From Vitis vinifera (taxonomy: Eukaryota; Streptophyta; Magnoliopsida; Vitales; Vitaceae): 64,000 bases of DNA. Where the stretch lies: the NCBI RefSeq assembly GCF_030704535.1, contig NC_081810.1:1674501-1738500 (forward strand), written 5' to 3'. A program made the position numbers and the translations under genes. The notes below the pieces were generated by a model that was not told the origin of the DNA, searched no databases, and saw only the letters and a program-made list of their open reading frames with translations. Below, piece by piece: positions 13,633 through 58,506 of the stretch; positions within the stretch are counted from its first letter, which is position 1; each line of letters starts with the position of its first letter.

Positions 13633-14152
13633 AAAAACTTGAAGAGCTTGAAAGAATGAAGACTTTTATTGCACAAATAGCTTTACAAGACTTGACTGAA
13701 AATTCACAATATTTCTCTTTATGACTCCATAAACTTCCATCCAACTTTGGAAAACTCTAGATGGCCCAAAAAACTTATAGAATATTAGAAAATTTATAGA
13801 ATGTTAAAAAATTTATAGAATGTTCCGATCGTTTAAAGGGGGCTTTAGTTTGAAGGGTTATTGGTAGAAAAGTCAAGTGCGGGTTTGTTTGTGGAGGCTG
13901 TTACAATAAGTTAAGAGTGCACTTATGTCTTACTTGGTTTGATCAAGTATGGCATATCTAATATTAGAAATAATTGCAATGTTTGTTTAATATACACTAT
14001 CATTAGATTCCATTCTTGCTTAAACTTTGGGCCAGCTACAAGCTTTTAAAATGATATCATCTTAAGTTTGATTCTCTCTGTCTGTTAATTCCCTCACTTT
14101 TTGTTTGTCTCTGATCAATTGTTGGTCAACTAACATGTAAAGAAGGGTCTTG
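13633..14152. other. Intergenic, short local repeats only
   Basis: Apart from a run of short repeats near 13765-13825 (TATAGAATRTTA phrases), nothing could be recognised. Confidence 0.45.
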
Positions 14153-14829: not shown

Positions 14830-15140
14830 GAAATTTTCATTTTACAGTTTTGTTTGATTTGAAGTCATTGGATTCTTCATCAGAAACTGACAGAGGGATG
14901 AAGAAGACAAAACCTACAAAAGTTGCAAAGCTAACTGCCACCATTTATTCTTTTGGACCAATATGGAAGACTTACAGGTGACTTTAGTCACTGAAATTGG
15001 TGCTTGGAAGCAAAATTTCCAGCATATATGGATAAGATTTTCTTAATATCTGAGGCTTTCATGGGAAATTTCATCATTCCCTCCACCAGTTAAGCTTGAG
15101 AATTTTTGGTTTTTGGCTCAATCTTTGTAATCCAAATTAT

Positions 15141-28956: not shown

Positions 28957-31359
28957 ATGGAAAATCCTCTGCGCTATTTGCTTCTGCTTTTGCCTCTTCT
29001 GCTGCTGCTGCCTGTTTCAAGCGTTGCTCAATCTTCTGGGAACAATATTACTTTGGGCTCATCCCTCACTGCTCGGGACAATGATTCGTGGGCATCCCCA
29101 TCTGGAGAATTTGCTTTTGGATTCCAAGAGATTATACCTGGAGGGTTCTTACTAGCTATCTGGTTCGACAAAATACCTGAAAAGACCATAGTTTGGTCAG
29201 CCAATGGCGATAATCTAGTGCAGACAGGATCCAGGGTTGAGCTTACCAGTAATGGTGAGTTTGTGCTGAATGACCCATCAGGGAAAGAGGTTTGGAGGGC
29301 TGATTCTGGGGGGACTGAAGTCAGCTATGCAGCCATGCTCGACACTGGAAACTTTGTGCTGGCGAGCCAAGAATCCAGCAATCTGTGGGAGAGTTTCAGT
29401 CATCCAACAGACACGATCTTACCAACCCAGATACTGAATCTAGGCAGCCAACTTGTTGCTCGTTTCTTGGAGACGAATTACTCAAATGGAAGATTCATGT
29501 TTGCGTTACAAAGCGATGGGAATCTAGTGCTTTACACCACTGATTTCCCAATGGATTCTAACAATTTTGCTTATTGGTCTACTCAGACAATGGACAGTGG
29601 ATTTCAAGTGATCTTCAACCAGTCTGGCCGCATCTATCTTATAGGGAGGAACAGAAGCATACTCAATGATGTGCTGTCAAATGAGGTGAATATGAGAGAG
29701 GATTTCTACCAGAGGGCAATTCTTGAATATGATGGGGTTTTCAGGCAATATGTCTACCCAAAATCTGCAGCCTCAGGGACTATGGCCTGGTCCTCCTTGT
29801 CCAAATTCATACCTGAAAATATCTGCACGAGAATTGGAGCGAGTACCGGCGGTGGAGCTTGCGGGTTCAACAGCTACTGCAGACTGGGAGACAATCAGAG
29901 ACCCAGTTGCCACTGCCCTCCTGGTTACACCTGGTTGGATCCACTTGATTCTTTGGGTGGATGCAGACAGAACTTTGTACAGCAGAGATGTGATGCAGGA
30001 ACACAAGAAGCGGGCCTGTTTTATTTTTCAGAGATGCTGGGTGTGGATTGGCCGTATGCCGACTACCAACATTTTAAAGGTGTAACTCAGGATTGGTGCA
30101 GGCAAGCCTGTTTGGGTGACTGTTTCTGTGCTGTGGCCATTTTCAGAGATGGGGACTGCTGGATGAAGAAAGTCCCTCTCTCAAATGGGAGGTATGATCT
30201 TAGCAATGAAAGAAGAGCTATGATTAAAGTGAGGAAGGATAATTCTACCTTGCCACCCATAGATGAAGGTTCGAAGGGGAAGGATCAGTCAACTTTGATC
30301 CTCACTGGATCGGTGCTGCTCAGTAGCTCAGCGTTCTTTAACTTTCTCTTCCTCCTAGCAATTGTTCTGTTCATCCGCCGCTGCAAGCACAGAAAAACAA
30401 GTGTTCTTCAGACATCCCCAGCCATGGAGGGAACAAATCTCCGGAGCTTCACTTACGAAGAGCTAGAAGAAGCCACCAATGGATTCAGAGATGAACTGGG
30501 GAGCGGGGCTTTTGCAACAGTTTACAAAGGGGCTCTACCCCATGATGATGGAATCAATTTGATTGCAGTGAAAAAGCTGGAGAGGATGGAGAAAGAAGGA
30601 GACAAGGAATTTGGGGCAGAAGTGAAAGCAATTGGCCGGACAAATCACAAGAACCTAGTCCAACTCCTGGGGTACTGCAACGAGGGGCAACACCGGCTTC
30701 TAGTATACGAGTTCATGAGCAATGGTTCTTTGGCAACCTTCCTATTTGGAAATTCAAGGCCAGATTGGTGTAAAAGAACACGGATCATCCTAGGAACTGC
30801 AAGAGGGCTCTTGTACTTGCATGAGGAGTGCAGCACCCAGATCATACACTGTGACATCAAGCCTCAAAACATACTTTTAGATGACTTTTTAACAGCAAGG
30901 ATTTCAGATTTTGGGCTAGCCAAGCTTTTGAAGACGGATCAGACGCGAACCATGACTGGAATCAGGGGAACCAAAGGGTATGTTGCGCCTGAATGGTTCA
31001 AGACAGTGCCTGTTACAGCCAAGGTTGATGTTTACAGCTTTGGGATTGTGTTGCTAGAGATCATTTTCTGCAGGAAGAACTTCGAACCCGATGTAAGGGA
31101 TGAAAGTCAGATGATCCTGGCTGATTGGGTGCAAGACTGCTACAAAGAGAAGAGATTGGATTTGCTGGTAGGAAATGATGAAGAGGTATTTGGTGATATG
31201 GAGAAACTGGAGAAGTTTGTGATGATAGCAATATGGTGTACGCAGGAGGATCCATCTCGAAGACCCACCATGAAGAAAGTTGTGCAAATGCTAGAAGGAG
31301 CTGCTGAAGTTTCTATTCCTCCAGACTCATCTTTCTCATCTGCCAGTAGTTCAATCTAA
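28957..31359 (+). CDS. Locus 4: G-type lectin receptor-like Ser/Thr kinase
   Basis: Intronless, 800 residues, ATG at 28957 in the same context (CCCAGCATGG) as locus 2. Signal peptide about 1-25; lectin with intact QSDGNLVLY; EGF-like CGFNSYC; PAN; membrane span about 452-476; kinase about 505-785. Catalytic residues are complete: glycine loop GSGAFATVYKG, Lys539, HCD Asp633, DFG Asp651. From the glycine loop onward it is nearly identical to locus 5, with only three or so residue differences to the end, and the match continues about 180 bases past the stop. Its ectodomain is not close to locus 5. It is therefore a likely source or recipient of a recent sequence exchange. Predicted active non-RD receptor kinase at the plasma membrane. 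Confidence 0.93.
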   Translation: MENPLRYLLLLLPLLLLLPVSSVAQSSGNNITLGSSLTARDNDSWASPSGEFAFGFQEIIPGGFLLAIWFDKIPEKTIVWSANGDNLVQTGSRVELTSNGEFVLNDPSGKEVWRADSGGTEVSYAAMLDTGNFVLASQESSNLWESFSHPTDTILPTQILNLGSQLVARFLETNYSNGRFMFALQSDGNLVLYTTDFPMDSNNFAYWSTQTMDSGFQVIFNQSGRIYLIGRNRSILNDVLSNEVNMREDFYQRAILEYDGVFRQYVYPKSAASGTMAWSSLSKFIPENICTRIGASTGGGACGFNSYCRLGDNQRPSCHCPPGYTWLDPLDSLGGCRQNFVQQRCDAGTQEAGLFYFSEMLGVDWPYADYQHFKGVTQDWCRQACLGDCFCAVAIFRDGDCWMKKVPLSNGRYDLSNERRAMIKVRKDNSTLPPIDEGSKGKDQSTLILTGSVLLSSSAFFNFLFLLAIVLFIRRCKHRKTSVLQTSPAMEGTNLRSFTYEELEEATNGFRDELGSGAFATVYKGALPHDDGINLIAVKKLERMEKEGDKEFGAEVKAIGRTNHKNLVQLLGYCNEGQHRLLVYEFMSNGSLATFLFGNSRPDWCKRTRIILGTARGLLYLHEECSTQIIHCDIKPQNILLDDFLTARISDFGLAKLLKTDQTRTMTGIRGTKGYVAPEWFKTVPVTAKVDVYSFGIVLLEIIFCRKNFEPDVRDESQMILADWVQDCYKEKRLDLLVGNDEEVFGDMEKLEKFVMIAIWCTQEDPSRRPTMKKVVQMLEGAAEVSIPPDSSFSSASSSI

Positions 31360-31733
31360 TGCTAATTTCCATTTGGGTATGTATTTTCGGTTACTGTTCA
31401 GTGACAAACAAAGGAGACAGTTATGTTGTGCTCCTAGCATATGAATAATCCATATGGTTTTGGATCATTTTTTACATCAACCTCTGCTCATCTCTCAATT
31501 CAAATTATTATTCCCTTTGAAGAAGTTAAATTTTGGCTATTTTTATCCAATCAATAGTTATTTACGAACTAGCAACAAAAATAACAGTCACTAAGAGTTC
31601 ATTTGATAGTGTTTTTAAAAATTACTTTTAGCCTAAAAAGGGTTTTTGACAAAATTTATGAAACTCTTAAAAATTTTAAAAATTATTTAAGGTATTAAAA
31701 AATCACTTGTAGTGTTTTTTTTAGAAATACTTA

Positions 31734-31855
31734 GAACCCGTTTAGTAGTAATACTAGAAAGCGCTTTTAATATTTTTAATACCTGAAAATTTTCATCATT
31801 CAAATGATAGAAATACTAGAAACGTTTTCTAAAATCACTCCCAAATGCATTCTTA
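31734..31855. repeat. MITE-like inverted-repeat element, copy 3
   Basis: The left end GAACCCGTTTAGTAGTAATA and the right end, inverted, pair over about 40 bases (both continue into TAGAAA.CG.TT and a TTTTAATATTT-like core). This is the clearest of three related short elements in the window. It lies in the locus 4 3' flank and is not seen at the matching place after locus 5. Confidence 0.6.
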
Positions 31856-34800
31856 GATTAAAAAGTATATAATTTGATTAAATAAATACCATGGTTAAGA
31901 AAAGAAACAACTTAACTCTTACTACATCATGCAATATTTGGCATAACCAATTTTTTTGACTTCCATTAACCTCTTTGTATATGCTCAATAAGATGGCATC
32001 ACTTGAATCACCTTCTACCTATAGGTTAAAGATAAGAAAATGTTAGTGTACTAATTGATACCTATCGAACTTATCATCCCAACCATCCAAACTGTATGAT
32101 GAAATCTAAGTTAATGAATATAGATGCAAATAATGGGATTAAAGTACAAAAGAATGGAATTGCATATAAACAATGAGATCAATATTATATAAAAGAATGT
32201 GACCAAAATACAAAGCAATGTTTGGACTTGGACATAAAACAATGAAACCCAGTTGTGCACATGGCACATTATAATTGGTTTTGTTTTTCGGTACATACCA
32301 ATTCGATATTGTAGTGAGACCCTTAAATATATCCATGACCTTTGCCTTATAATTTTATGTGTGATATCTAAGAAATGTGTAATTTGATTTGATAAGAAGG
32401 GAAAGTTTTCTATGCCTTATGGGAGTAGCATATGGATTAGCCTTATCACAAAATTATGTGGTATATAAGATGTGTTTTATAGACTTGAAATTGCAGGAAA
32501 AGGTAACCCACAAGGAGTTCTTTAGTGAAAGTACCATGGCAACCTCATGGAGTGGAAAAAGCTATATTATAGTTATCCTAGGCTTTTCATAGGTTTACTC
32601 TTATAAATTAGAAGGAGAAGTTCTTTTTTTTTGCTTGCAGGGAAGGGGATGTAATACTTGGTTATTAAAAAATGTTAATTTTTATGCTTAATGTTAATTA
32701 GATTGAATTTAGATATTAAAACTAGTTTAAGGTTGATAATTTTAATTATAAGTTAGACCCAATTTAATGCTAATTATAATTAATTGATGGCTTAAGTTTG
32801 TGTGTTAAGGATGTGGGGCCTAATTACAATTATGAGAACTTTAAAAGGATGGACCATTTAAGAAATCTTAAAAAGTAAAAAGTAGGGGACTTCAATGTAA
32901 AAAATAAGTTGGTTTGTATTAGCTCTAGGGCATTGCTCCAAAAGTATTTAAGAAACTAACAACTATAATAAGAAGTCTTACTTAGAAGAAGTCTTGCTAA
33001 ATTTAAAGATAAAAATTTTTAGAAAAGTAATTGTAATTAGATTGGTTAAATAAATTCCACGCCATCTATGTCATGTCAAATTTTGTATGTTGACCCATTT
33101 TCTTGTGTGCAAATATTATTATTTTGAATTTAATGTTTGTATAACTTTAAAACATGTTTACATAGTTAAAATGAGTCCGTTATATATAAAATATAAAAGA
33201 CTTCTCTTCCTAGTTGATATGGTATCTCATCAATCACCCTCTCTCTCGTGCATATATGACTTTCTTGTTACATTCCATGGTACAAAATTCATACATTAAG
33301 AAGTTGATCATTGTAGGTGGTATCGTGCAATGGCATGGGACATGATGAGGTCATCATTTAGGCTATAAGAACTCATTTAGATATGGGATGATTATGAGAA
33401 CTTATTTAGGTTATAAGGAAAAGTTCTTGACAATTTATATACAATGTGTTCCTCTAAACTATATAAACATATTTTAAAACAACTAGGTTATTTAAGGTTT
33501 GAACTTGAAGAAGACGATATTTGTACAAAAGGAAGAGTGTCATTACAAATTGAATACCTCATTAAATTTGGAAATTTAAAATCTATTTGTCCTCATTTTG
33601 TCCACATAGGACAAGACAAGAACATTTTGTCCATATATGTGAATGATTATGAGATCCAATGTCATGTGCGACACATGACCAAAAGTTTCTAATATTCCAT
33701 ATATAGTGAGATCTCCTTATTTGTGTTGATGTGTTTTAAAACTTCGAGATCCATAGACATTAAGTCCGAGACACAAATCAAAGCAATCCTTCATCAAATG
33801 TGGGAGTGTATAAAAGCTAATCCTCCACATATGGAAGTTTGTCCAATCCTACAATTCCATAGGATATGAGAGTTTGTTTGGGAGGGTTAGAGGAAATAGT
33901 TGTGAGATCTTATATTGGTTATTTAGGGAGATATAATATTTTATATATGGTAGACTTTTTTTTAGCCATATAGACGTATTTTAAATTCACACAGACCTTA
34001 AGCTTAGAGCAGATGATATTTAAATATAAAGGATATATTCATTACAAATGGTATTATAGTTAGATATAAAAGTCTTTTTTATTGGTCTTGTGGGATCCCA
34101 TATTAGTTAGGAAGAGAAGTTCTTGACACTTCATATGTAGAGAACTCCTTTTGATCATATATAGATGTGTTTTCAAGCCATGCAAGCCTTAAGTTGATAA
34201 CAGTCAATATCTACCAAGAGCATATTATTACAAATTGTTTTTTAGTGAATTTTTAGACAAGTTGAATCTAACCTTAGAAAGAATTAGATCGGCAGAATTA
34301 TTTGACATTTAAATTTGATTTAAGTTTATGGTAAATGGAGTTAATCAAGAGCAAGAATGAGCAAACTCCACTTGTTATTACATCATTGTTGGACAACCCT
34401 ACCTCAGATGCCCATACACCCCCTATGCTCTGTTCCCATTGTTTGAGATCTGAGAGCAGGGAAGCTTGGCCATATTGCAAGGGGCCTGTACCATCGCCCA
34501 GCTGCATGCTACAGAAAACATGTGCCACGACCATGGAACACTCACTGAATTTGTGCAGAGTTGTATAGTTTTTGCTACCTTGCTGCTAGAGAACAGTTCC
34601 TTGTATATCCAATTTCTGTATGAAATTGTGGAATCCCAAGAAAAGAAAATGGAGAAATTCAGTTCAATTTGGAAAAGTCAGACTTCTAGAAGAGTCGAAC
34701 AACTTAGGGAATGAAAATCTTAAAATTCAATGCAGAAAGGTTTGGAAAAGTTATTAGCCATGTCTGAAGTATATTTTTGACATTGTCAATGCCCCTGAAG

Positions 34801-35049
34801 TATATTTTTGAAGTCTATGAACTATTTTGACCGGAAGCCACCTTAATAAACTCTACAAGACCAATTCATAAGGCATTTTGTTGAGGTTAGAAATTTCCTC
34901 AACAGCGCATAGATTAATCTGTGTTGATGCTTGTTCCAACCATTCTGGATGGCGGTCAAGGTTAAGGGATCAGCCAACAAGGCTTATATCATACCCTAAT
35001 CAATCTCTAGTTGCGTAATTTTCAATTTCGGTTCATTTTTTTATCAGTT

Positions 35050-35530
35050 TAGTTGGGTGCAACAAAGTCACTTTTGAACTTGAGAATGGATCATTCCAAT
35101 GACAACTCTTAGAACAATCTATAGGATATGATGTTAAATGTTAATAAAAAGTTAACTTCTGGATACCAATTGACTTCCATGATCCTAGAATTCATATCAG
35201 AGTCAAGGATTATGATTCAAGTCATGAGAGCATCATGTTAAGATGCAGCAACATCACTTTAGGGATAGATCACCCAAAACTCTTAAAACAAACTTATGTG
35301 GTATGATGTTGAATGCTATAAAAAGTTTGGCCTATATTAACCTATAGGTTTTTCGAATGAGATGATCAAAACCCCTGATCCAACAATTGATATTAGAGCC
35401 GAGAGTCACGGTCAAGTCATGGGAGTGTCATGTTGGTGCACAATAATGCTGCTACAGAATGATGACTCACTCAAACGACAACTCTTAGAACAGGTCTAGA
35501 GGGCACGATGTGAAATATCTTAAAAAGAAT
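35050..35530. repeat. Three diverged units of about 175-205 bp upstream of locus 5
   Basis: The phrase AACTCTTARAACA recurs near 35104, 35278 and 35482. Each time it is followed by a form of TATGATGTTRAATGYTATAAAAAGTT and then by a sequence resembling the plant primer-binding site (TGATATTAGAGCC at 35388-35400). The same three units lie upstream of locus 6 (about 41020-41480). They may derive from an old LTR-element junction that was duplicated before the promoter itself was copied. Confidence 0.6.
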
Positions 35531-35909
35531 TGCTGGCCTACCTCACTGGCAATTGGGTTTCAGCCAGAAATGCTTCTGTTGCGTACTCTGCATTAATGTC
35601 CCCATCCAAGGGTGGTTCAGCACAACAAGCAATCCATAAACAAAGCAAGTAAATACATTCTAACTCTAAAAAATCAAAGTTTGAAATCAAGTAAATACAT
35701 GGCAGCTTCAAGTCGAAGAAAGTTTGGAATCATTAGGAGACTGATTATTAGAACAAGTCAATGGAAGAAAACAAATTGAAAACCATCTATAAAATTTTCA
35801 AGCACACCTGAACAAAATGGAGATTTCATCATTTCTCTAGTGATTTACAATCTAGAGATTTTGGCTTAAATTCTTGAAGTTCACGTCTTTGTAATTTTAT
35901 CTTCCTGCA

Positions 35910-38321
35910 ATGAAAACTGCAGTACCTTATTGTCTCTGCTGGTTGCCTCTCCTCCTCCTCCTCCTCCTCCTCCTGCTGCTGCTCCCAGCGTCGGTTGTTG
36001 CTCAAGCTTACAGTAACAAAACTCTGGGCTCGTCCCTCACAGCAGGAGACAATGAATCTTGGGCATCAGAGTCTGGCGAATTCGCTTTTGGATTCCAAGA
36101 GATTGGAACTGGGGGTTACTTGCTGGCTGTTTGGTTCAACAAGATATCTGAAAAGACGGTAGTTTGGTCAGCCAATGGGGGTAATCTAGCGAAAAAGGGA
36201 TCCAAAGTTCAACTTACTAGTGATGGAAGTTTTGTGCTGAACGATCAGGAAGGTGAAAAGATATGGCCGGTTGATTCTACGATTACTGGTGTGGCCTATG
36301 CAGCCATGCTCGACAGTGGAAACTTCGTGCTGGCAAGGCAGGATTCCATGAATTTGTGGGAGAGTTTTGATAATCCAACAGATACGATATTGCCCACACA
36401 GGCAATGAATCAAGGCAGCAAGCTGCTTGCTCGTTTATCAGAAACGAATTACTCAAGTGGAAGATTCATGTTTACACTAGAATCTACTGGAAATCTGGCG
36501 ATGTACACCACTAATTTCCCACAGGATTCTGAAAATTTTGCTTACTGGTCATCAAAGACTACTGGCAGTGGCTTTCAAGTGATTTTCAACCAGTCTGGTT
36601 CCATCTACCTTATGGCGAGCAATGGAAGCAAACTTATGGATGTGCTCACAAATGAAGCTTCAACAGAAGACTACTACCAGAGAGCAATTCTTGAATATGA
36701 TGGAGTTTTCAGACAATATGTCTACCCAAAGTCTTCTGGCTCAAGTGCTGGGAGGCCTATGGCATGGTCCTCTTTAACCTCGTTTGTGCCTGACAATATC
36801 TGCACAAGTATCAGGGCAGAGACAGGCAGTGGAGCTTGTGGCTTCAACAGCTACTGCACAATGGGAAATGATGACAGACCATACTGTCAGTGCCCTCCTG
36901 GTTACACCTTCTTGGATCCACAAGATGATATGAATGGATGCAAACAGAACTTTGAACCAGAGAGTTGCAGTGAAGAATCACAAGAGAAGGGTCTGTTTGG
37001 TTTTGAAGAGATGACGGATGTGGACTGGCCGCTGTCAGATTATGGGCATTTTACAGAAGTAACAGAGGATTGGTGCAGACAAGCTTGCTTGGATGATTGT
37101 TTTTGTGATGTTGCCATTTTTGGAGATGGGGGGGATTGTTGGAAGAAGAGAACCCCTCTCTCAAATGGGAGGACTGAGTCTAATAATGGACGAAGAATTC
37201 TGATTAAAGTACGGAAGGACAATTCTACTTCGGAACCCAGAAATGAAGGTAAAAAAGATCAGTCAACTTTGATCATCACAGAATCTGTGCTGTTAGGTGG
37301 CTCTGTTTTTCTGAATTGCCTCCTCCTCCTAGCAGCTTTTATTAAGAGAAAGTCAAAGACTCTTCAGCCACACCAGGCCATGGTGGGGGCAAATCTAAAA
37401 ACTTTCAGTTACAAGGCGCTAGAAGTGGCTACTAATGGCTTCAAGGATGAGCTGGGAAGGGGAGCTTTTGCAACAGTTTACAAAGGGGCTCTACCCCATG
37501 ATGATGGAATCAATTTGATTGCAGTGAAGAAGCTGGAGAGGATGGAGAAAGAAGGAGACAAGGAATTTGGGGCAGAAGTGAAAGCAATTGGCCGGACAAA
37601 TCACAAGAACCTAGTCCAACTCCTGGGGTACTGCAATGAGGGGCAACACCGGCTTCTAGTATACGAGTTCATGAGCAATGGTTCTTTGGCAACCTTCCTA
37701 TTTGGAAATTCAAGGCCAGATTGGTGTAAAAGAACACGGATCATCCTAGGAACTGCAAGAGGGCTCTTGTACTTGCATGAGGAGTGCAGCACCCAGATCA
37801 TACACTGTGACATCAAGCCTCAAAACATACTTTTAGATGACTTTTTAACAGCAAGGATTTCAGATTTTGGGCTAGCCAAGCTTTTGAAGACGGATCAGAC
37901 GCGAACCATGACTGGAATCAGGGGAACCAAAGGGTATGTTGCCCCTGAATGGTTCAAGACAGTGCCTGTTACAGCCAAGATTGATGTTTACAGCTTTGGG
38001 ATTGTGTTGCTAGAGATCATTTTCTGCAGGAAGAACTTCGCACCCGATGTAAGGGATGAAAGTCAGATGATCCTGGCTGATTGGGTGCAAGACTGCTACA
38101 AAGAGAAGAGATTGGATTTGCTGGTAGGAAATGATGAAGAGGCATTTGGTGATATGGAGAAACTGGAGAAGTTTGTGATGATAGCAATATGGTGTACTCA
38201 GGAGGATCCATCTCGAAGACCCACCATGAAGAAAGTTGTGCAAATGCTAGAAGGAGCTGCTGAAGTTTCTATTCCTCCAGACTCATCTTTCTCATCTGCC
38301 AGTAGTTCAATCCAATTCTAA
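35910..38321 (+). CDS. Locus 5: chimeric G-type lectin receptor-like kinase
   Basis: Intronless, 803 residues, ATG at 35910 in the same context as locus 6. Signal peptide about 1-31 encoded by a CTC/CTG repeat; lectin about 35-200; EGF-like; PAN; short membrane span; kinase. The mannose-type signature has become ESTGNLAMY (191-199), missing three key residues. Up to the glycine loop (about 37460) the gene matches locus 6, apart from a 12-base deletion that shortens the inner end of the membrane span. After the loop (from about 37485) it matches locus 4 through the stop and 3' flank. All kinase residues are present: GRGAFATVYKG, Lys540, HCD Asp634, DFG Asp652. It joins a locus 6-type sensor and promoter to a locus 4-type kinase, and its open frame suggests it works. 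Confidence 0.93.
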   Translation: MKTAVPYCLCWLPLLLLLLLLLLLLPASVVAQAYSNKTLGSSLTAGDNESWASESGEFAFGFQEIGTGGYLLAVWFNKISEKTVVWSANGGNLAKKGSKVQLTSDGSFVLNDQEGEKIWPVDSTITGVAYAAMLDSGNFVLARQDSMNLWESFDNPTDTILPTQAMNQGSKLLARLSETNYSSGRFMFTLESTGNLAMYTTNFPQDSENFAYWSSKTTGSGFQVIFNQSGSIYLMASNGSKLMDVLTNEASTEDYYQRAILEYDGVFRQYVYPKSSGSSAGRPMAWSSLTSFVPDNICTSIRAETGSGACGFNSYCTMGNDDRPYCQCPPGYTFLDPQDDMNGCKQNFEPESCSEESQEKGLFGFEEMTDVDWPLSDYGHFTEVTEDWCRQACLDDCFCDVAIFGDGGDCWKKRTPLSNGRTESNNGRRILIKVRKDNSTSEPRNEGKKDQSTLIITESVLLGGSVFLNCLLLLAAFIKRKSKTLQPHQAMVGANLKTFSYKALEVATNGFKDELGRGAFATVYKGALPHDDGINLIAVKKLERMEKEGDKEFGAEVKAIGRTNHKNLVQLLGYCNEGQHRLLVYEFMSNGSLATFLFGNSRPDWCKRTRIILGTARGLLYLHEECSTQIIHCDIKPQNILLDDFLTARISDFGLAKLLKTDQTRTMTGIRGTKGYVAPEWFKTVPVTAKIDVYSFGIVLLEIIFCRKNFAPDVRDESQMILADWVQDCYKEKRLDLLVGNDEEAFGDMEKLEKFVMIAIWCTQEDPSRRPTMKKVVQMLEGAAEVSIPPDSSFSSASSSIQF

Positions 38322-41019
38322 TTTCCATTTGGGTATGCATTTTTGGTTACTTTTTAGTGACAAATAAAGGAGACAGTTATGTTGTGCTCCTAGCATATGA
38401 ATAATCCATATGGTTTTGGATCATTTTTTACATCAACCTCTGCTCATCTCTCAATTCAAATTATTATTCCCTTTGAAGAAGTTAAATTTTGGCTATTTTT
38501 ATCCAACCATTTATTATACATAAATGACTTAAATCAATGGTTATTTGCGAACCCACAACAATAACAAGTCATTAAGAGTTCATTTGATAGTGCTTTTTAA
38601 AAATACTTTTAAGCTTAAAAAGCATTTTTAAAGAAAAATAGGGTATTTGACAAAATTTAGAAAACACTTTAAAAAATCATTTATGGTAATAAAAAATCAC
38701 TAATAATATTTTTTGGAGAAACGCTTGACTGAAAAGTATATGACTTGATTAAATAAATACCATGGCTAAGAAAAGAAACATTTTAACTCTTACTATATAC
38801 TGCAATATTTGGCAAAACCAAAGTTTTTGCCTTCCATTAGCCTCTCTCCATTTTACATATACTTAATAAGATGGTATTGGTCGAATCACCTTTTACCTAT
38901 AGGTTAAAGATAATAAAATGTTAGGGTACTAATTGATGCCTATGAAACTTATTATTCGAACTGTCCAAATCGTATAATAAAATCTAAGTCAATGAATATG
39001 GATACAAATAATGGAATTAAAGTACAAAAGAATGGAATTGTATATAACCAATGAGATCAATATTGAATAAAAGAATGTGATCAAAATGCAAAGCAGTGTT
39101 ATGCTCAAGCTAACATATAAATAATCCATATGGTTTTGGATCATTATCTACCTTCACTCATCTCTCATATCATTATCCACAGTTTTGTTAAATTCTGACC
39201 ATCAAGATGACCCAAATCAATGTGCATTTTTAGCACCCACAACAAAAGTCATTAGTTTCAATAGTAGGTTGCAGTTTGTAAAAGATACCTAAGAGATGTA
39301 CAATCCCCTAAATTTGCTATTTAAACCCATGGTGGCGAAAGAAGTTCGCATACAAAAAGAAAAAAATGTATCTATTTTGCTCTATGCTAGACTAAATAGT
39401 ATAACTTGATTAAATAAATATGATAATTAAGTAAACAGATGGCTTAACTCTAAACAAGGTCCAATATTTGGCAAAATCAAACTATCTGACTTCCATTAAC
39501 CTCTCTCTCCATAGTCCATATTATATGTGCTCTACAAGATGATAACAATTGAATTACCTTCATAAGGAAAATGCTAGGGTATAAGTCAATAGCTATTGAA
39601 CTTGCCATTCCAATAGTCCAAGATGCATGATGATATGTAGGGTACAAAAGAATTAAAATATATTAGGATCAACTCATAAAATAATGACATCAAGATATGA
39701 TGAAACGAATTTGGGTATGAAGCAATAAGGCCTAATTGTTCATGTGACACATTATGATTGATCCTACTTTTCAATATTTATTGATTCAATACTATAGCAG
39801 AACCCTCCAATATATCTATGATCTCTACCATATAATTTTATGTGTGATATCTAAGAAATGTGTACTTTGATCTTAGAAGAAGTGAGTTTTTTTCCAAGCT
39901 GCATTGAGTAACTTGAGATTCTCATATCCAAGTAGCATAGAGAGTAGCCTTACCACAAAATTATATGGTCTATATGACGTGTTTTATGTGTTCTAATATA
40001 TTTCAAATGACTTGGTTTTGTGTGGCTTGAACTTGCAAGAAAAGGTAATGTATAAGGAGGGACATATGTAGATTTTGGATGGAAAGTAACAAATATTGTA
40101 ACTAAGGTTATTTCTTTGGTGGAAGTACCATAGCAATCTCATGGAGTGGAAAAAGATATATCAAAGTTGTCCTAGGCTTTTTATACTTTTATTCTTTTAA
40201 ATTAGAAGGACAAAATTTTTGTTAGGGGAGGGGATGTGATATTTGGTTGTAAAAAATGTTAATTTTTATGCTTAATGTTGCCTTTAATTAGATGTTAAAA
40301 CTGGTTTAAGGTTGATCATGGTTAGGCCTAATTTAAGATTAGTTATAATTAATTGATGACTTAAGTTTATGTGTTGGGATGATTGACCTAATTACAATTA
40401 TGAGAACTTGAAAAGATGAATTATTTAGGAAGTCTTAAAAGTAAAAAGTGGGGACTTCAGTGTAAAAAGTAAGTTTTGTAGTAGCTCTACAGCATTGGCA
40501 CCTAAAACTTTCTCTGCAGAGTATTTAAGAAGCTAATAATTTTTATAAGTCTTGCTTTAGAAGAAGACTCACTAATTCTTAAGTAATAAAATTATCATTA
40601 AAATTGTGGAATCCCAAGAAAAGAAAATAGAGAGATTCAGTCCAATTTGGAAAAGTCAGACTTCTAGAATTCAATGCAGAAAGGTTTGGAAAAGTTATTA
40701 GCCACGTCTGAAGTATATTTTTGACATTGTCAATGCCCCTGAAGAACAGTCTTTTATTTATTATATTCAAAAATCTTGAAGTCTAAGAACTCTTTTGACC
40801 AGAAGCTACCTTAATAAACTCTACAAGACTAAGTCATAAGCAATTTGTTGAGGTTAGAAATTTCGTCAACAGCACATGGATTAATCTGGTGTTGATGCTT
40901 GTTGCAAGCATTCTGGATGGCCGTCAAGGTTAAGGGATCAGCCAACAAGGCTTATATCATACTCTAATCAATCTCTAGTTGTGTAATTTTCAATTTTGGT
41001 TCATTTTTATCAGTTTTGT

Positions 41020-41480
41020 TGGGGTGCAACAAAGTCACTTTTAAACCCGGATGGATCATTCAAATAACAACTCTTAGAACAACTTGTAGGATATGATGTC
41101 AAATGTCAATAAAAAGTTTGAATTATTGATACTAACTGACTTTCATGATCCTAGAATTCATATCAGAGTCGAGGATCATGATTCAAGTCATGGAGCATCA
41201 TGTTAAGATACAACAACGTCAATTTGGGGGTAGACCACCCAAATGACCGAATCTTAAAATAAACTTATGTGGTATGATGTTGAATGCTATAAAAAGTTTG
41301 ACCTACATTAACACCAATTGGTTTTTCAAATGAGATGATCAAAATCCCGGATCCAACAATTGATATTAGAACTGAGAGTCATGGGAGTGTCATGTTGGGG
41401 TGCAACAATGCTGCTACAGGATGACTCACTCAAACAGACAACTCTTAGAACAGGCCTAGAGGGTACGATGTGGAATATCT
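41020..41480. repeat. Three diverged units upstream of locus 6
   Basis: This is the counterpart of the repeat at 35050-35530, with AACTCTTAGAACA or variants near 41069, 41248 and 41439. It shows that the triple arrangement predates the copying of the promoter between loci 5 and 6. Confidence 0.6.
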
Positions 41481-41713
41481 TGAAAAGAATTGCTGGCCTA
41501 CCTCACTGGCAATTGGGTTTCAGCTAGAAAGGATTCTGTTGCGTACTCTGCATTGATGTCCCCATCCAAGGGTGGTTCAGCACGACAAGCAAACCATAAA
41601 CAAAGCAAGTAAATACATTCTAACTCTGAAAAATCAAAGTTTGAAATCAAGTAAATACATGGAAGCTTCCCCCACAATTTCAGTAGACAGTGACACAAAT
41701 GTCAAAGACTCAG

Positions 41714-41987
41714 GCGGTGTTTATTTTTTTACTTAATTCTAAATAGAACCTTAATACTTAATAGTATTAAATATTAGGTTGTTTGTTTTTTAGTATTTTA
41801 TTTCTATTAAGTATTAAAAAGTAAAAAAAATCATTATGTTATTTTTTCTATTTAGAAAAAACCACATATTTTGGCTTTTTCTATTTAGTAAAAAGTTTAT
41901 AATAAGTCATGAAAAAGTAAAAAAACAAACAACCTAAATTCTAAAACTAAATGGTTTTCAGTAAAAAGCCAAAAAAACAAACACCAC
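41714..41987. mobile_element. MITE-like DNA transposon (274 bp) upstream of locus 6
   Basis: The ends GCGGTGTTTATTTTTTT and AAAAAAACAAACACCAC form an imperfect terminal inverted repeat. CTCAG stands on both sides (41709-41713 and 41988-41992) and may be a 5-base target duplication. The inside is AT-rich with further partial inverted pairing (TTAAGTATTAAAAAGTAAAA phrases). The locus 5 upstream region lacks this insert, so it probably arrived after the promoter was duplicated, although a nearby deletion in the locus 5 copy blurs the comparison. It ends about 200 bases before the locus 6 start codon. The superfamily is uncertain. Confidence 0.65.
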
Positions 41988-42190
41988 CTCAGTCTAAGAA
42001 AGTTTGGAACCACTAGGAGACTGATTATTAAAACAAGTCAATGGAAGACAACAAACTGAAAACCCTCTATAAAATTTTCAAGCACATCTGAACAAAATGG
42101 AGATTTCATCATTTCTCTAACGATTTAGAATCTAATAGATTTTCGCTTAAATCCTTGAAGTTCATGTCTTTGTAAGCTTATCTTCCTGCA

Positions 42191-44605
42191 ATGAAAACTG
42201 CAGTACCTTATTGTCTCTGCTGGTTGCCTCTCCTCCTCCTCCTCCTCCTCCTGCTGCTGCTGCTCCCAGCGTCGGTTGTTGCTCAAGCTTATAGTAACAA
42301 AACTCTGGGCTCATCCCTCACAGCGGGAGACAGTGAATCTTGGGCATCAGAGTCTGGCGAATTCGCTTTTGGATTCCAAGAGATTGGAACTGGGGGTTAC
42401 TTGCTGGCTGTTTGGTTCAACAAGATATCTGAAAAGACCGTAGTTTGGTCAGCCAATGGGGGTAATCTAGTGAAAAAGGGATCCAAAGTTCAACTTACTA
42501 GTGATGGAAATTTTGTGCTGAATGATCAGGAAGGTGAAAAGATATGGCCGGTTGATTCTACGATTACTGGTGTGGCCTATGCAGCCATGCTCGACAGTGG
42601 AAACTTCGTGCTGGTAAGGCAGGATTCCATTAATTTGTGGGAGAGTTTTGATAATCCAACAGATACGATATTGCCCACACAGGCACTGAATCAAGGCAGC
42701 AAGCTTGTTGCTCGTTTATCAGAAAAGAATTACTCGAGTGGAAGATTCATGTTTAAGCTACGGTCAAATGGAAGTCTGACGATGTACACCACTGATTTTC
42801 CACAGGATTCTGAAAATTTTCCTTATTGGTCATCACAGACTACTGGCTTTCAAGTGATTTTCAACCAGTCCGGTTCCATCTACCTTATGGCGAGGAATGG
42901 AAGCAAACTTATGGATGTGCTCACAAATGAAGCTTCAACAGAAGACTACTACCAGAGAGCAATTCTTGAATATGATGGAGTTTTCAGACAATATGTCTAC
43001 CCAAAGTCTGCTGGCTCAAGTGCTGGGAGGCCTATGGCATGGTCCTCTTTAACCTCGTTCGTGCCCAAGAATATCTGCAAAAGTATCAGGGCAGAGATAG
43101 GCAGTGGAGCTTGTGGCTTCAACAGTTACTGCACAATGGGAAATGATGACAGGCCATACTGCCAGTGCCCTCCTCGTTACACCTTCTTGGATCCACAAGA
43201 TGATATGAGTGGATGCAAACAGAACTTTGTACCAGAGAGTTGCAGTGAAGAATCACAAGAGAAGGGTCTGTTTGGTTTTGAAGAGATGACAGATGTGGAC
43301 TGGCCGCTGTCAGATTATGGGCATTTTACAAAAGTTACAGAGGATTGGTGCAGACAAGCTTGCTTGGATGATTGTTTTTGTGATGTTGCCATTTTTGGAG
43401 ATGGGGGGGGTTGTTGGAAGAAGAGAACCCCTCTCTCAAATGGGAGGACTGAGTCTAATAATGGACGAACAATTCTGATTAAAGTACGGAAAGACAATTC
43501 TACTTGGGAACCCAGAAGTGAAGGTAACAAAGATCAGTCAACTTTGATCATCACAGAATCTGTGCTGCTAGGTGGCTCTGTTTTTCTGAATTGCCTTCTC
43601 CTCCTATCAGCTTTTATGTACATCTTCCGTAAGAGAAAGTCAAAGACTCTTCAGCCACACCAGGCCATGGTGGGGGCAAATCTAAAAAATTTCAGTTACA
43701 AGGCGCTAGAAGTGGCTACCGATGGCTTCAAGGATGAGCTGGGAAGGGGAGCTTTTTCAACAGTTTACAAAGGGACTCTAGCCCATGATAATGGAAAATT
43801 AGTTGCAGCAAAGAAGTTGGACAGGATGGTGAGAGGAGTGGAGGTGGAATTTGAAACAGAAGTGAGTGCAATTGGCCGAACAAATCACAAGAATCTAGTC
43901 CAGCTCCTGGGGTTCTGCAATGAGGAGCAACACCGGCTTCTTGTATACGAGTTCATGAGCAATGGTTCTTTGGCAACCTTCCTATTTGGAAACTCAAGGC
44001 CAGACTGGTATAGAAGAACACAGATCATCTTAGGAACTGCAAGAGGGCTCTTGTACTTGCATGAAGAGTGCAGCACCCAGACCATACATTGTGACATCAA
44101 GCCTCAAAATATACTCCTGGATGACTTTTTAACAGCGAGGATTTCAGATTTTGGGCTAGCCAAGCTTTTGAAGACGGATCAGACTCAGACTACGACTGGA
44201 ATCAGGGGAACCAAGGGGTATGTTGCCCCTGAATGGTTCAAGACAGTGCCAGTTACCGCCAAGGTTGATGTTTACAGCTTTGGAATTGTGCTGCTAGAGC
44301 TCATTTTCTGCCGGAAGAACTTTGAACCAGCAGTGGAGGATGAAAATCAGATGGTATTAGCTGATTGGGCATATGACTCCTACCTAGAAAGGAAACTGGA
44401 TCTATTAGTGGAAAAAGATCAGGAGGCACTGGATAACATGGAAAAGCTGGAGAAGTTTGTGATGATAGCAATATGGTGCATTCAGGAGGATCCATCTCAA
44501 AGACCAACCATGAAGAAAGTCACACAGATGCTAGAAGGAGCCATCGAAGTTCCTCTTCCTCCAGACCCATCCCCATTCTCCAAATCATTTCCGCATCAAC
44601 CATAA
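42191..44605 (+). CDS. Locus 6: G-type lectin receptor-like kinase with lost mannose signature
   Basis: Intronless, 804 residues, ATG at 42191. Signal peptide about 1-31 made by a CTC/CTG repeat; lectin about 35-200; EGF-like, where the family CPPGY has become CPPRY; PAN; membrane span about 455-478; kinase to about 785. The mannose-type signature QxDxNxVxY reads RSNGSLTMY at 191-199, with four of five key residues changed, so mannose binding at this site is unlikely. The kinase is complete: GRGAFSTVYKG, Lys541 (in VAAKK), HCD Asp635, DFG. The ectodomain and promoter are close to locus 5 but the kinase is clearly different from it. Likely an active non-RD receptor kinase with a changed ligand. 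Confidence 0.93.
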   Translation: MKTAVPYCLCWLPLLLLLLLLLLLLPASVVAQAYSNKTLGSSLTAGDSESWASESGEFAFGFQEIGTGGYLLAVWFNKISEKTVVWSANGGNLVKKGSKVQLTSDGNFVLNDQEGEKIWPVDSTITGVAYAAMLDSGNFVLVRQDSINLWESFDNPTDTILPTQALNQGSKLVARLSEKNYSSGRFMFKLRSNGSLTMYTTDFPQDSENFPYWSSQTTGFQVIFNQSGSIYLMARNGSKLMDVLTNEASTEDYYQRAILEYDGVFRQYVYPKSAGSSAGRPMAWSSLTSFVPKNICKSIRAEIGSGACGFNSYCTMGNDDRPYCQCPPRYTFLDPQDDMSGCKQNFVPESCSEESQEKGLFGFEEMTDVDWPLSDYGHFTKVTEDWCRQACLDDCFCDVAIFGDGGGCWKKRTPLSNGRTESNNGRTILIKVRKDNSTWEPRSEGNKDQSTLIITESVLLGGSVFLNCLLLLSAFMYIFRKRKSKTLQPHQAMVGANLKNFSYKALEVATDGFKDELGRGAFSTVYKGTLAHDNGKLVAAKKLDRMVRGVEVEFETEVSAIGRTNHKNLVQLLGFCNEEQHRLLVYEFMSNGSLATFLFGNSRPDWYRRTQIILGTARGLLYLHEECSTQTIHCDIKPQNILLDDFLTARISDFGLAKLLKTDQTQTTTGIRGTKGYVAPEWFKTVPVTAKVDVYSFGIVLLELIFCRKNFEPAVEDENQMVLADWAYDSYLERKLDLLVEKDQEALDNMEKLEKFVMIAIWCIQEDPSQRPTMKKVTQMLEGAIEVPLPPDPSPFSKSFPHQP

Positions 44606-45807
44606 TTGTGTCGTAGAAACTGATTCAACAGCAATCCTTGTAGGGTTATTAATTCTTCAAATCTTTGTAGGGATTCTTTTTTCTCTTTTCTTTTTTCTTT
44701 TTTTCCTTTTTGTTCATCCCTCAACATTAAGATGAATAAATTCATTCTCATTGGCAACTCATCATTTTCTTGAAAATACGTTTCATACTGCTTTGCATAT
44801 CATAATCGCAAAGTTAGAAATTTTAATTATTAAGATGTGTATGTGCCGTGGGCACACATCAACCCACAAATACAAATCAAGAATGTCATGACTTTTGAAC
44901 ATAGAGTGAGTCTACAGCATAAACAAGTACCAACATTTCATAAGCCAATTGTCCAAATGACTTATCAAAAGAACAAAATAGAAGTTCATATAATCCCAAT
45001 GAGGGAAACTTTTTGGGTTTAATTTTCATATCAGTGCCAATAAACACAGCTGTCTCAAAAGCTTTAGCTGTTAAGAAATCACCAACAATGTAAAGAAAGC
45101 TTAAACTGTTGTCCTTAGCCATACATAGGGAAAGAAAAGAGAGTTTTTCTTTGTGAGATTCAAAGCACTCCTGGCAGCATTGGGATGAATTGGTCAAAAA
45201 ACTACAGATATCAGGAAGAAGAATAACTCTATTCATCTAGAAACTTTGTTATAATATGTGATTTGCCAAGCATCATCCTACTATTCAAATTACCTCGAAT
45301 TGTATACCAAGAAAGTATTACTTCTTCAAAATTGTAAAGCATACGGATGAGACCTTCTAGATTTTGTCGAACCTTATGTCTGCCAGTTATTATTTAAGTT
45401 GATGTATGCAGTTGATGTTAGGCACTTAGCTCTTCCTTGTTGAAGAAAATTGTCCTTGGTCACTGATACTGCCAAAAATAAACACCTTTGAAACGCATGC
45501 TATTCAAAATACATTCAACCATAATCAAGCACCTAAAACACCTTTATGTAAAAGAAGCACTTAGGATTAAGGTCTTCCATAAGAGATGACCTTCAATCAG
45601 CACCAGCTGGCTTTCCACTTTTTGGCCGCTAATGGCCAAAGTCAACAATGGCAGCAGAAGGTTAGCTGGATACCCCCATAGGAAAACTCTCTAAACCCTG
45701 AAGCCCATTTCTTTATTAAGAAACCTCCTTTGAATCCTTTGAATCTAGAAATGGTGGAACCAAAATTTTCAATTATTCCTGAAGATTTTTGAGCATCTTC
45801 AGTCACC
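44606..45807. other. Spacer between loci 6 and 7
   Basis: A T-rich stretch follows the locus 6 stop (44677-44710). A minus-strand frame of 116 codons at 44886-45236 starts with ATG but resembles nothing I know and is probably chance. The immediate upstream region of locus 7 has a Leu/Lys-poor, unremarkable composition. No other gene is supported. Confidence 0.5.
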
Positions 45808-54000: not shown

Positions 54001-54979
54001 TTATAAGAGTCTTGACTTGAGAAACATGATGCTACAAAGAGTTTCTTCTCCTGAGAATCTGCATCAGCAACTTGTGCTTGCTGAGATTGAGGACCTTTAT
54101 TTTTATATTTGCAGACTTTGTAACATGCCCAAGCTGTTTGCAGTTGCCGCACATTGCGTCTAGCCTCCACCAACAGTATTTCTCTAGATGCGTAGTCTTC
54201 TTGCAATGTGAGCAGGTTGGATATTTTTTTTGTTGGGCCCCTTCTTTGCTGCTCTTCTCTCTGCTTTTACTTTTCTTCTTGCTGAACTAGTTTTTGTTTT
54301 TATTAGATTGTAGGGTCTGCATTTGAAAAACACCTTCTGTGACGTTCTCTTGCCTCAAAGCTCTTCTTTGCTCTTGTGCTTGGAATGCATTCATTAGTTC
54401 AGCAAGTGAAATTTGTGAAAGGTCCCTAGATTCTTCAAGAGATGAAATCTTGGACTCAAACCTCTCAAGAAGTGTCACAAGAACCTTCTCCACGATCCTT
54501 GCATTAGGAAATTCTTCACCAAGCAACCTGATTTTGTTAACAATCAAAGCAATTCTGTCAGAATACTTGGTGATAGTTTCATCTTCTTGCATGGTTAGAG
54601 ACTCAAAGTCCCTTTTCAAATTCAGCACTTGCATTTGTTTGGTTCTATCACTTCCTTGATACTCCAATTTAAGCTTGTCCAAGGCTTCTTTGGCTGTCCT
54701 GCAATTCATAATTCTATGAAATACTGAGTCAGCAACTGAATTTTGGATTAAATTCTTAGCTTTAAACTTTTTGGTCTTTTTGTCAGTATGAGCTCTGATT
54801 TGTGCTAAGGTAGGATTCGCCGGAAGTGGAGCTATTGGTTCGTCTTTAGCTACAACTTCCCAAAGATCAAATGCTTCCAGGTACGTTTGCATCTTTACGG
54901 ACCAAATTTGATCGCAAAGATTTGAGGAGCTAACAAAGAGATGCTGCTGGTTGCCATTTTCTAGTGTGGTTTCAAATGG

Positions 54980-56702
54980 GTTATGAAGTGAACTTTCTTG
55001 GTTTTCACTCAAAATACAGGTCCTGTAAGACCAACTGTGGCTCTGATACCACTTGTTGGAGAAACTACAGGTATGAAACTGGAAGTTAATGAAGAAAAAG
55101 CTACAGATATGGTAGAGAGAAGCTGATAATTTTATTCCATTTGAGATGAGATATTTATACAAAAAAATAACAAATTCTTCCTATCTTTCCTACATATTTA
55201 TTTAGGCTATTACACCTGTTTTTGAAATTTAAAACAAACAAAGTCATAACAAACTTGAGCTAATCTTCAGCAAAGACTAGTCTTCAAGGATTGGAATCTA
55301 GAATGCCAACAACTGAACAGTTGCCTATGCAGCCATGCTTGACACTGGAAACTTTGTGCTGGCAAACCAAGATTCTACCAACTTGTGGGAGAGTTTTGAT
55401 CATCTGACAGACACACTATTACCCACACAGATGCTGAATCAAGGCAGCAAACTTGTTGCTCGTTCCTCAGATGTGAGTTACTCAAGTGGAAGATTCATGT
55501 TTGCATTGCAAACTGATGGAAATCTCGTGATGTACACCACAGATTTTCCAATGGGTTATGAAGTGAACTTTCTTGGTTTTCACTCAAAATACAGGTCCTG
55601 TAAGACCAACTGTGGCTCTGATACCACTTGTTGGAGAAACTACAGGTATGAAACTGGAAGTTAATGAAGAAAAAGCTACAGATATGGTAGAGAGAAGCTG
55701 ATAATTTTATTCCATTTGAGATGAGATATTTATACAAAAAAATAACAAATTCTTCCTATCTTTCCTACATATTTATTTAGGCTATTACACCTGTTTTTGA
55801 AATTTAAAACAAACAAAGTCATAACAAACTTGAGCTAATCTTCAGCAAAGACTAGTCTTCAAGGATTGGAATCTAGAATGCCAACAACTGAACAGTTGCC
55901 TATGCAGCCATGCTTGACACTGGAAACTTTGTGCTGGCAAGCCAAGATTCTACCAACTTGTGGGAGAGTTTTGATCATCTGACAGACACTATTACCCACA
56001 CAGATGCTGAATCAAGGCAGCAAACTTGTTGCTCGTTCCTCAGATGTGAGTTACTCAAGTGGAAGATTCATGTTTGCATTGCAAACTGATGGAAATCTCG
56101 TGATGTACACCACAGATTTTCCAATGGGTTATGAAGTGAACTTTCTTGGTTTTCACTCAAAATACAAGTCCTGTAAGACCAACTGTGGCTCTGATACCAC
56201 TTGTTGGAGAAACTACAGGTATGAAACTGGAAGTTAATGAAGAAAAAGCTACAGATATGGTAGAGAGAAGCTGATAATTTTATTCCATTTGAGATGAGAT
56301 ATTGATACAAAAAAATAACAAATTCTTCCTATCTTTCCTACATATTTATTTAGGCTATTACACCTGTTTTTGAAATTTAAAACAAACAAAGTCATAACAA
56401 ACTTGAGCTAATCTTCAGCGAAGACTAGTCTTCAAGGATTGGAATCTAGAATGCCAACAACTGAACAGTTGCCTATGCAGCCATGCTTGACACTGGAAAC
56501 TTTGTGCTGGCAAGCCAAGATTCTACCAACTTGTGGGAGAGTTTTGATCATCTGACAGACACACTATTACCCACACAGATGCTGAATCAAGGCAGCAAAC
56601 TTGTTGCTCGTTCCTCAGATGTGAGTTACTCAAGTGGAAGATTCATGTTTGCATTGCAAACTGATGGAAATCTCGTGATGTACACCACAGATTTTCCAAT
56701 GG
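54980..56702. repeat. Tandem triplication of LTR plus lectin segment (573-575 bp units)
   Basis: Three head-to-tail units lie at 54980-55554, 55555-56127 and 56128-56702. Each contains about 74 bases of element leader with the primer-binding site, one 266-base LTR and about 235 bases of lectin coding sequence. At each internal joint the lectin phrase CCAATGG runs directly into element leader GTTATGAAG. Both parent sequences share AATGG at that point, so the first joint looks like a microhomology event, later expanded by unequal exchange. Units are nearly identical (the second lacks two bases), so the event is younger than the Copia insertion. Confidence 0.93.
55054..55319 (-). repeat. Right LTR (5' LTR of the Copia element), first of three array copies
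   Basis: A 266-base LTR starting TGTTGGAGAAACTACAGG and ending CAACTGAACA, followed by the GTTGC target duplication and resumed lectin codons. Almost identical copies at 55629-55894 and 56202-56467 arose by the tandem triplication and are not separate insertions. Confidence 0.93.
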
Positions 56703-58506
56703 ATTCTGCAAATTTTGCTTACTGGTCAACACAGGCTATTGGCTCTGGCTTTCAAGTTATCTTCAACCAGTCTGGCCACATCTACGTCGTGGTGAGGAAA
56801 GAAAGCATACTTAGCGATGCTTTATCGAATGAAGTTTCAATGAGAGACTTCTACCAGAGAGCAATTCTTGAATATGACGGGGTTTTCAGGCAATATGTCT
56901 ACCCAAAGACTGCTGGCTCAAGGTCTGGTAGGTGGCCTATGGCCTGGTCCACTTTATCTTCATTTATACCTGACAATATCTGCAGGATAATTAGGGCAGA
57001 CACAGGAAGTGGAGCTTGTGGCTTCAACAGCTACTGCACACAAGAAGATGATAAGACACTGCACTGCCAGTGCCCTCCTGGTTACAGCTTCTTGGATCAG
57101 AAAAATGAAATGAAAGGATGCAAACAGGACTTTGTACCAGAGAGTTGCGATGAAAAATCACAAAAGATGGGTCTGTTTCACCTTGAAGAGATAACAAATG
57201 TGGATTGGCCATTGTCATATTATGAATATTTTCAACCAGTAACAGAGAATTGGTGTGGAAAAGCTTGATTGGATGATTGCTTTTGTGCGGTAGCTATTTT
57301 TGGAGGAGGAAAATGTTGGAAGAAGAAAATCCCTCTAACAAATGGAAGGTTTGATCCTAGTAGTGGACGTAAAGCTCTTATTAAAGTAAGGAAGGAAAAT
57401 TCTACTCTGCAACCCAGAAGTGAAGGTTTGAAGAAGAAAGATCAGTCAACTCTGATCCTTACTGGATCAGTGCTGCTAGGTAGCTCTGTTTCCTGAACTT
57501 GCTTCTCCTCCTTGCAACTATTATATTCATCTTTCTCTTGAATCACAGAAAATCGAAGATTCTTCAACCACACCCGGTCATGGTGGGCAGAAATCTACAA
57601 ATTTTCACATACAACAAGCTAGAAGAAGCCACCAATGGATTCAAGGATCAACTGGGGAGGGGGGCCTTTGGAACAGTTTACAAAGGTGTTCTAAACCATG
57701 AGAATGGAAATTTCAATGCAGTCAAAAAGTTGGACAAGATGGTGAAAGAAGGAGAGCAAGAATTTGAAACAGAAGTGAAAGCAATTGGCCGGACAAATCA
57801 TAAGAATCTAGTCCAACTTCTGGGTTTCTGCAATGAGGGGCAAAACCGGCTTCTAGTATACAAGTTCATGAGCAATTGTTCTTTGGCAACCTTCCTATTT
57901 GGAAATTCAAGGCCAAATTGGTATAAAAGAATACAGATTGTCCTAGGAACTGCAAAAGGGCTCTTGTACTTGCATGAAGAGTGCAGCACCCAGATCATAC
58001 AATGTGACATCAAGCCTCAAAATATACTCCTAGATAGCTTTTTAACAGCAAGGATTTCAGATTTTGGGTTAGCCAAGCTTTTGAAGACAGACCAGACTCA
58101 GACGATGACTGCAATCAGGGGAACCAACGGATATGTTGCCCCTGAGTGGTTCAAGACAGTGCCTATCACATTCAAGGTTGATGTTTACAGCTTTGGAATT
58201 GTGCAGCTAGAGCTCATTTTCTGCAGGAAGAATTTTGAACCAGAGTTGGAGGATGAATATCGGATGGTATTGGCTGAATGGGCATATGATTGCTACCATA
58301 AAGGAAAACTGGATCTACTATTGGAAAATGATCAGGAGACATTGAATAAGATGGAGAAGCTGGAGAAGTTTGTGATGATAGCAATCTGGTGCATTCAGGA
58401 GGATCCATCTCGAAGACCTACCATGAAGAAAGTCATACAGATGCTAGAAGGAGCCATTCAAGTTCCTCTTCCTCCAGACCTTTCCTCGTCTATCAGTTCA
58501 TTTTGA

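Follow-up and report, generated by a model that had tools for sequence, protein, structure and literature searches.

A 64-kb window, the whole stretch of DNA analysed here (C6, positions 1674501-1738500 of one 495.6-Mb assembly of 21 contigs, which was also the genome searched), contains a tandem cluster of receptor kinase genes. Seven of them, R1, R2, R3 (on the reverse strand), R4, R5, R6 and R11, are single open reading frames, and partial or decayed receptor kinase copies lie beside them. Pfam detected B_lectin and kinase domains in the six of these genes that were submitted to it, and R3 was placed by similarity. On another contig, C16, dozens of chalcone/stilbene synthase matches at 21.0-21.5 Mb suggest that the genome is that of a grapevine (Vitis). 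The genes R4, R5 and R6, which an initial annotation had called loci 4, 5 and 6, follow one another on the forward strand, and R5 is the subject of this analysis (Table 1).

Table 1. Receptor genes and sequence blocks at the R4-R6 locus, in window coordinates.
Feature	Coordinates	Strand	Remarks
R4 (locus 4), G-type lectin receptor kinase, 800 aa, open frame	28957..31356	+	PF01453, PF00069; kinase partner of the chimera
R5 (locus 5), chimeric receptor, 803 aa, open frame without stops	35910..38318	+	
R6 (locus 6), G-type lectin receptor kinase, 804 aa, open frame	42191..44602	+	Ectodomain partner of the chimera
R10, decayed relative	56465..58506	+	DNA comparison only; tried for polarising the swap
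R5, R6-type half: hydrophobic N-terminus, B_lectin ectodomain, hydrophobic membrane segment, juxtamembrane region, start of glycine loop	35910..37463	+	
R5, switch interval within the glycine loop GRGAFATVYKG	37464..37469	+	
R5, R4-type tract: kinase and about 190 bp of 3' sequence	37470..38504	+	Likely recent R4/R5 conversion tract
R5, R4-type 3' flank and intergenic sequence	38505..40591	.	Older divergence; extra sequence absent from the R4 spacer
R5, R6-type 5' flank and promoter	34623..35909	.	
1.6-kb stretch found only in the R4-R5 spacer	33015..34622	.	Divergence changes here
MITE-like insertion in the R6 promoter	41704..41992	.	R5 without it

With a B_lectin domain (PF01453, E = 5.7e-17, residues 83-167), a membrane segment at residues 459-478 placed by hydropathy and a kinase domain (PF00069, E = 6e-48, residues 512-778), R5 is a G-type (B-type) lectin receptor kinase. 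By hydropathy, its N-terminus and hydrophobic segment look like a signal peptide and a transmembrane helix. The kinase motifs are complete (GRGAFATVYKG, IAVK, IHCDIKPQN, DFGL and APEW), as predicted for an active kinase, and the catalytic loop reads HCD instead of HRD, which makes R5 a non-RD kinase. Elsewhere in the cluster, the catalytic loop of R3 (22935-25316) reads HGDINPQN and R2 (19227-21674) carries NFG instead of DFG; each may be a weak or inactive kinase.

The initial annotation had proposed that locus 5 is a chimera, with a sensor of the locus 6 type on a kinase of the locus 4 type, and our analysis confirms that R5 is a mosaic of an R6 sensor half and an R4 kinase half, R6 being the next of the three genes downstream and R4 the next upstream. 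Synonymous divergence is discordant in both directions: Ks between R5 and R6 rises from 0.077 before the switch to 0.436 past it, and that between R4 and R5 falls from 0.768 to 0.022. In a three-way alignment of R4, R5 and R6, the last R6-type site is at 37463 and the first R4-type site at 37470, inside the glycine-loop codons (about 37460-37485) to which the switch had been assigned. Before this point the informative coding sites are 357 R6-type and 29 R4-type, and after it 5 R6-type and 131 R4-type, with lone exceptions to the switch at 37434 (R4-type) and at 37529 and 37637 (R6-type). The best single breakpoint among the 522 informative sites is this same switch (hypergeometric log10 p about -83 after correction for the choice of breakpoint, an overstated value as the sites are non-independent), and none of 200 shuffles reached the observed run.

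A genome search for receptor relatives returned 86 matches, fragments included, and we scanned 24 genes for mosaics, seven from the window and 17 of 20 that were fetched (three with frames below 700 amino acids were dropped). R5 gave the strongest signal of the 596 within-cluster triplets with at least 60 informative sites. Identity in 100-column windows showed the sharp change at the glycine loop that the initial annotation had anticipated: over the ectodomain R5 and R6 are mostly 93-98% identical, with two lower windows (87/100 and 89/94), and R4 stands at about 64-83%, whereas past the switch in the coding sequence R5 and R4 are 98-100% identical and R6 falls to 75-95%. A smooth identity profile across R5 is ruled out by these values. 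The trees disagree as well, uniting R5 with R6 in the ectodomain and R4 with R5 in the kinase, each with a support of 100 (L020 was left out of both trees, and the truncated L018 also out of the kinase tree).

Base by base, R5 is identical to R6 at 1488 of 1548 positions before the switch (60 substitutions; 482 of 516 residues in the ectodomain half), in line with the claim that its ectodomain and membrane region follow locus 6, and to R4 at 842 of 849 positions of the kinase coding sequence (7 substitutions; 280 of 283 residues). The kinase halves of R4 and R5, which had been put at about three residues apart, differ by three residues and a two-residue C-terminal extension. Genome-wide, the R4 kinase and 3' stretch matches R5 at 98% and the next best locus, R6, at 86%. 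The place of the switch is explained well enough by local similarity, as R4 and R6 differ at a single base within 37464-37487 (24 bases). A separate patch at 36440-36640, where R5 and R6 are 88% identical, lies below the rest of the ectodomain; no clear donor for it was found within the window, the best match after R6 being R10 at 82%.

As expected of an unequal crossover, R5 has the flank of one parent on each side. Among the cluster flanks compared, its 5' flank matches that of R6 alone (958/1032 and 182/199 bases identical to 40601-41669 and 41991-42190). Its 3' flank matches that of R4 in blocks over about 2.2 kb; its other matches, to R2 and R10, span just 39-64 bp. The R4-side blocks are 31549-31727, 31861-32222 and 32518-33014, of which the last two are 86-87% identical to R5. 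Together with the kinase coding sequence, these blocks bear out the claim that R5 follows locus 4 through the kinase and 3' flank. The 1.2 kb of R6 3' flank at 44606-45792 had no match to the R4 and R5 3' flanks, and the 2.1 kb of R4 5' flank compared had none to the R5 and R6 5' flanks.

Comparison of the flanks also upheld the proposed order of locus 4, chimera and locus 6 with duplicated flanks in between. The two spacers are duplicated and collinear, again as an unequal crossover would have them, apart from a 1.6-kb stretch in the R4-R5 spacer and additional sequence in the R5-R6 spacer. The 1.6-kb stretch is absent at 40591/40601 of the R5-R6 spacer and matches the genome at full length only at its own place, its 38 other matches being short pieces. 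Identity rises abruptly at 34623/40601. That the promoter follows locus 6 holds over 34623-35709 and 35711-35909 and fails at an insertion of about 290 bp, MITE-like and partly self-complementary, that is present in R6 and missing from R5, so the R5 promoter is not fully that of R6. Among 40 candidates scored, this insertion has 39 other copies at 96-99% identity.

To date the blocks relative to one another we used separate block alignments, since a whole-spacer MAFFT alignment forced non-homologous stretches together. The shared blocks fall at three levels of divergence, about 0.02, 0.075 and 0.15. The R5/R6 5' flank (0.075; promoter 0.091) and ectodomain share one level (Fisher test, 5' flank versus ectodomain synonymous sites, p = 0.90), and R4/R5 3' blocks ii and iii have diverged by 0.146 and 0.151. 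Fisher tests on the differences set the spacer blocks apart from the R5/R6 5' flank (p = 8e-6) and from the kinase synonymous sites (p = 1e-6), and point to a modest age difference between the kinase and ectodomain synonymous sites (p = 0.015). The kinase with its 3' tract is the youngest of the shared blocks.

The near-identical stretch of R4 and R5 ends at about 31548/38504, as counted by eye on the alignment: seven differences lie around or just past the stop codon, followed by 139 identical bp and then by an indel and lower identity. Downstream, identity is 95% over the first 108 bp and then 92%, 87% and 86%, as the initial annotation had said in noting that the flanks differ more further downstream. 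It had suggested an added gene-conversion tract on these grounds, and the interval 37464-38504 has the profile of one, with a Ks of 0.022 against 0.768 on the 5' side and about 0.15 on the 3' side (blocks ii and iii).

We consider it probable that R5 arose by an older duplication of the crossover type, followed by a later R4/R5 conversion of about 1 kb over the kinase. Judging from the anatomy of the locus, an R6-type and an R4-type gene would have undergone an unequal crossover in the conserved start of the kinase, yielding the order R4, a gene with an R6 5' half and an R4 3' half, and R6, together with a duplicated spacer. Judging from the divergences, gene conversion between R4 and R5 would later have homogenised about 1 kb comprising the kinase and the start of the 3' flank. 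Upstream of the old junction R4 and R5 are only about 74% identical, which is probably why the conversion halted there, and the halt would keep the switch sharp today. Duplication by unequal crossover fits better than a conversion of the kinase alone because of the gene order and the flanks exchanged on both sides; kinase-only conversion is ruled out by the likeness to R4 in blocks across the 3' flank and by the unmatched 3' flank of R6.

The initial annotation had invoked one unequal crossover, a proposal that accounts for the exchanged flanks and the duplicated spacer and falls short on the ages of the blocks. A single event would give all duplicated blocks one age, and we found three; with the R4/R5 intergenic blocks (0.15) twice as diverged as the R5/R6 5' flank (0.075), a single crossover of one date is insufficient, and it would need unequal local rates, diverged parental haplotypes or a further exchange near 34623/40601. 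The three levels of divergence and the abrupt rise in identity at that point would also follow if no crossover took place and an old array of three genes underwent two separate gene conversions, the spacers being old whole-unit duplicates (0.15). One tract would cover the R6/R5 5' flank and ectodomain (about 2.8 kb, 0.075) and a later one the R4/R5 kinase (about 1 kb, 0.02), and the gene C5c of the same genome does contain a tract bounded by two internal breakpoints, as conversion without crossover typically leaves behind (see below). We nevertheless think this history rather unlikely, as it requires extra losses to leave the R6 3' and R4 5' flanks unmatched, an absence that a crossover predicts.

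The same order of R4, hybrid and R6 with a duplicated spacer would also be expected if two haplotypes of an R4-R6 pair had been joined head to tail within the kinase during assembly, creating a false middle gene. Such an artefact is highly improbable: the copies diverge by 4% in the ectodomain, 7% in the 5' flank, about 14% in spacer blocks ii and iii and 0.8% in the kinase, and ordinary allelic differences are far below the 4-14% seen here. The 1.6-kb stretch and the MITE-like insertion also separate the copies, and a simple misjoin of these two copies would not give R5 its 60 substitutions relative to R6 and 7 relative to R4. We conclude that R5 originated by recombination between tandem paralogues, with further exchange possible. 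Events of this kind are well known and their mechanism is ordinary, and R5 is an unusually clean instance. In clusters of NLR and Xa21-type genes, chimeric immune-type receptors arise by unequal crossing over and conversion; the class of mechanism is the same as in R5 and the receptor classes are others.

We used R10 to polarise the swap. Its ectodomain identity is 0.806 to R5, 0.798 to R6, 0.791 to R3 and 0.759 to R4. In the first part of the kinase R10 is slightly closer to R4 and R5 (0.886) than to R6 (0.876), and in the last part it is closer to R6 (0.841) and R3 (0.833) than to R4 and R5 (0.724 and 0.726). At kinase sites that differ between R5 and R6, R10 has the R6 base 76 times and the R5 base 44 times (p = 0.004). 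This pattern mainly marks the kinase end of R4 and R5 as the unusual one and weakly favours R6 as the older pairing, R3 being almost as near to R10 as R5 and R6 are, so that the recipient gene of the swap is only weakly polarised.

Between the kinases of R4 and R6 (about 30508-31040 versus 43751-44285), Ks is 0.17-0.40 in the first 180 codon columns and 0.70-1.33 beyond them, which suggests an older exchange between them and calls for more caution on the direction of the swap. Overlapping with the histories considered above is the reverse direction, in which the kinase moved from R5 to R4 and the difference between the R5 and R6 kinases reflects another exchange. R4 and R5 by themselves cannot tell the direction, and the unusual closeness of the R4 and R6 kinases over those 180 columns would fit; an extra event is required, however, and R10 sides, if weakly, with R6 in the kinase by the margin given above, which leaves this direction doubtful. 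R2 and R4 are close at the start of the ectodomain (Ks 0.25-0.35).

The R4-type and R6-type kinases are identical at 226 of 282 residues (80%) and have the same HCD, DFG and APE motifs. Their glycine loops read GSGAFA and GRGAFS, respectively, and the beta3 motif is IAVK in R4 and R5 and VAAK in R6, with the lysine kept. The remaining differences cluster around beta3-alphaC and within the C-terminal lobe. On this comparison of sequences, R5 most likely presents an ectodomain of the R6 type and signals through a kinase of the R4 type, and its output may be hardly changed, the kinases of the family being similar. The initial annotation had described a natural domain swap that wires one sensor to another kinase. 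The new pairing of sensor and kinase is a fact of the sequence; that it alters signalling is no more than possible, given the similarity of the kinases and the broad equivalence of cytoplasmic domains swapped between alleles in Arabidopsis OAK (PMC3136440). Nature has already set up an experiment here, as R5 and R6 have an ectodomain half in common and R4 and R5 a kinase, and comparing the three would separate the contributions of sensor and kinase. Such genes also carry a warning, as trees of G-type lectin receptor kinases built from whole proteins or from kinases only can misplace them.

OAK is, like R4-R6, a tandem receptor-like kinase cluster, and swaps of extracellular and cytoplasmic regions were built in which, between alleles, the ectodomain mattered more (PMC3136440). 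Unlike R5, the OAK receptors have malectin-like and LRR regions, and the change described there combines a promoter newly recruited from coding sequence with ectodomain divergence, whereas in R5 a kinase half was exchanged between paralogues (PMC3136440). By class and size, R4-R6 can also be likened to OsLecRK1-3 of rice BPH3, a lectin receptor kinase cluster with coding sequences of 2436-2442 bp that is reported for brown planthopper resistance; unlike R5, no chimera is described in the portion of the source at hand (PMC6424995). In open-licence literature on lectin receptor or receptor-like kinase chimeras, grapevine lectin receptors, BPH3 and Xa21, the locus appeared in no title or abstract start among the matches listed.

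R5 is not an isolated case of a mosaic receptor in this genome. A second mosaic lectin receptor kinase, C5c (L064, with L062 and L063; C5:5205000-5208827, minus strand), has an open frame of 782 amino acids with a full kinase match (L001). Over ectodomain residues 127-395 it is identical to its neighbour C5b at 804 of 805 bases, and outside this tract it is nearer to C5a (337/376 before and 1116/1159 after) than to C5b (277/373 and 920/1162). Like R5, C5c is a G-type lectin receptor kinase in which the nearest relatives of ectodomain and kinase differ within one cluster; unlike R5, it has two breakpoints in the ectodomain half, an internal tract and no switch at the glycine loop, so that its sensor was exchanged by a different route. 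The glycine-loop pattern of the window genes has no match in C5c. Exchange at the glycine loop is weak as a rule, given that C5c breaks elsewhere. The C13 cluster gives mosaic signals too, weaker ones. R5 and C5c might be taken to mean that G-type lectin receptor kinase clusters here routinely re-pair sensors and kinases by ectopic exchange, that recognition and output would be separately inherited modules, and that R5 would give an R6-type ligand another output or expression, a generalisation that we regard as speculative and improbable.

Ten short lectin-domain fragments are dispersed over C10, C11, C2, C7, C13, C15, C16 and C18; they cover query residues from about 122 to 218 at 54-63% identity, a pattern suggestive of capture and dispersal by a mobile element. 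Within the window, a unit of about 575 bp that contains an early ectodomain piece occurs three times in tandem ahead of R10 at 54970-56708, the copies being about 99% alike, and direct repeats outside the receptor genes, at 14150-14835 (about 345 bp) and 2542-2908 (about 211 bp), are 97% identical.
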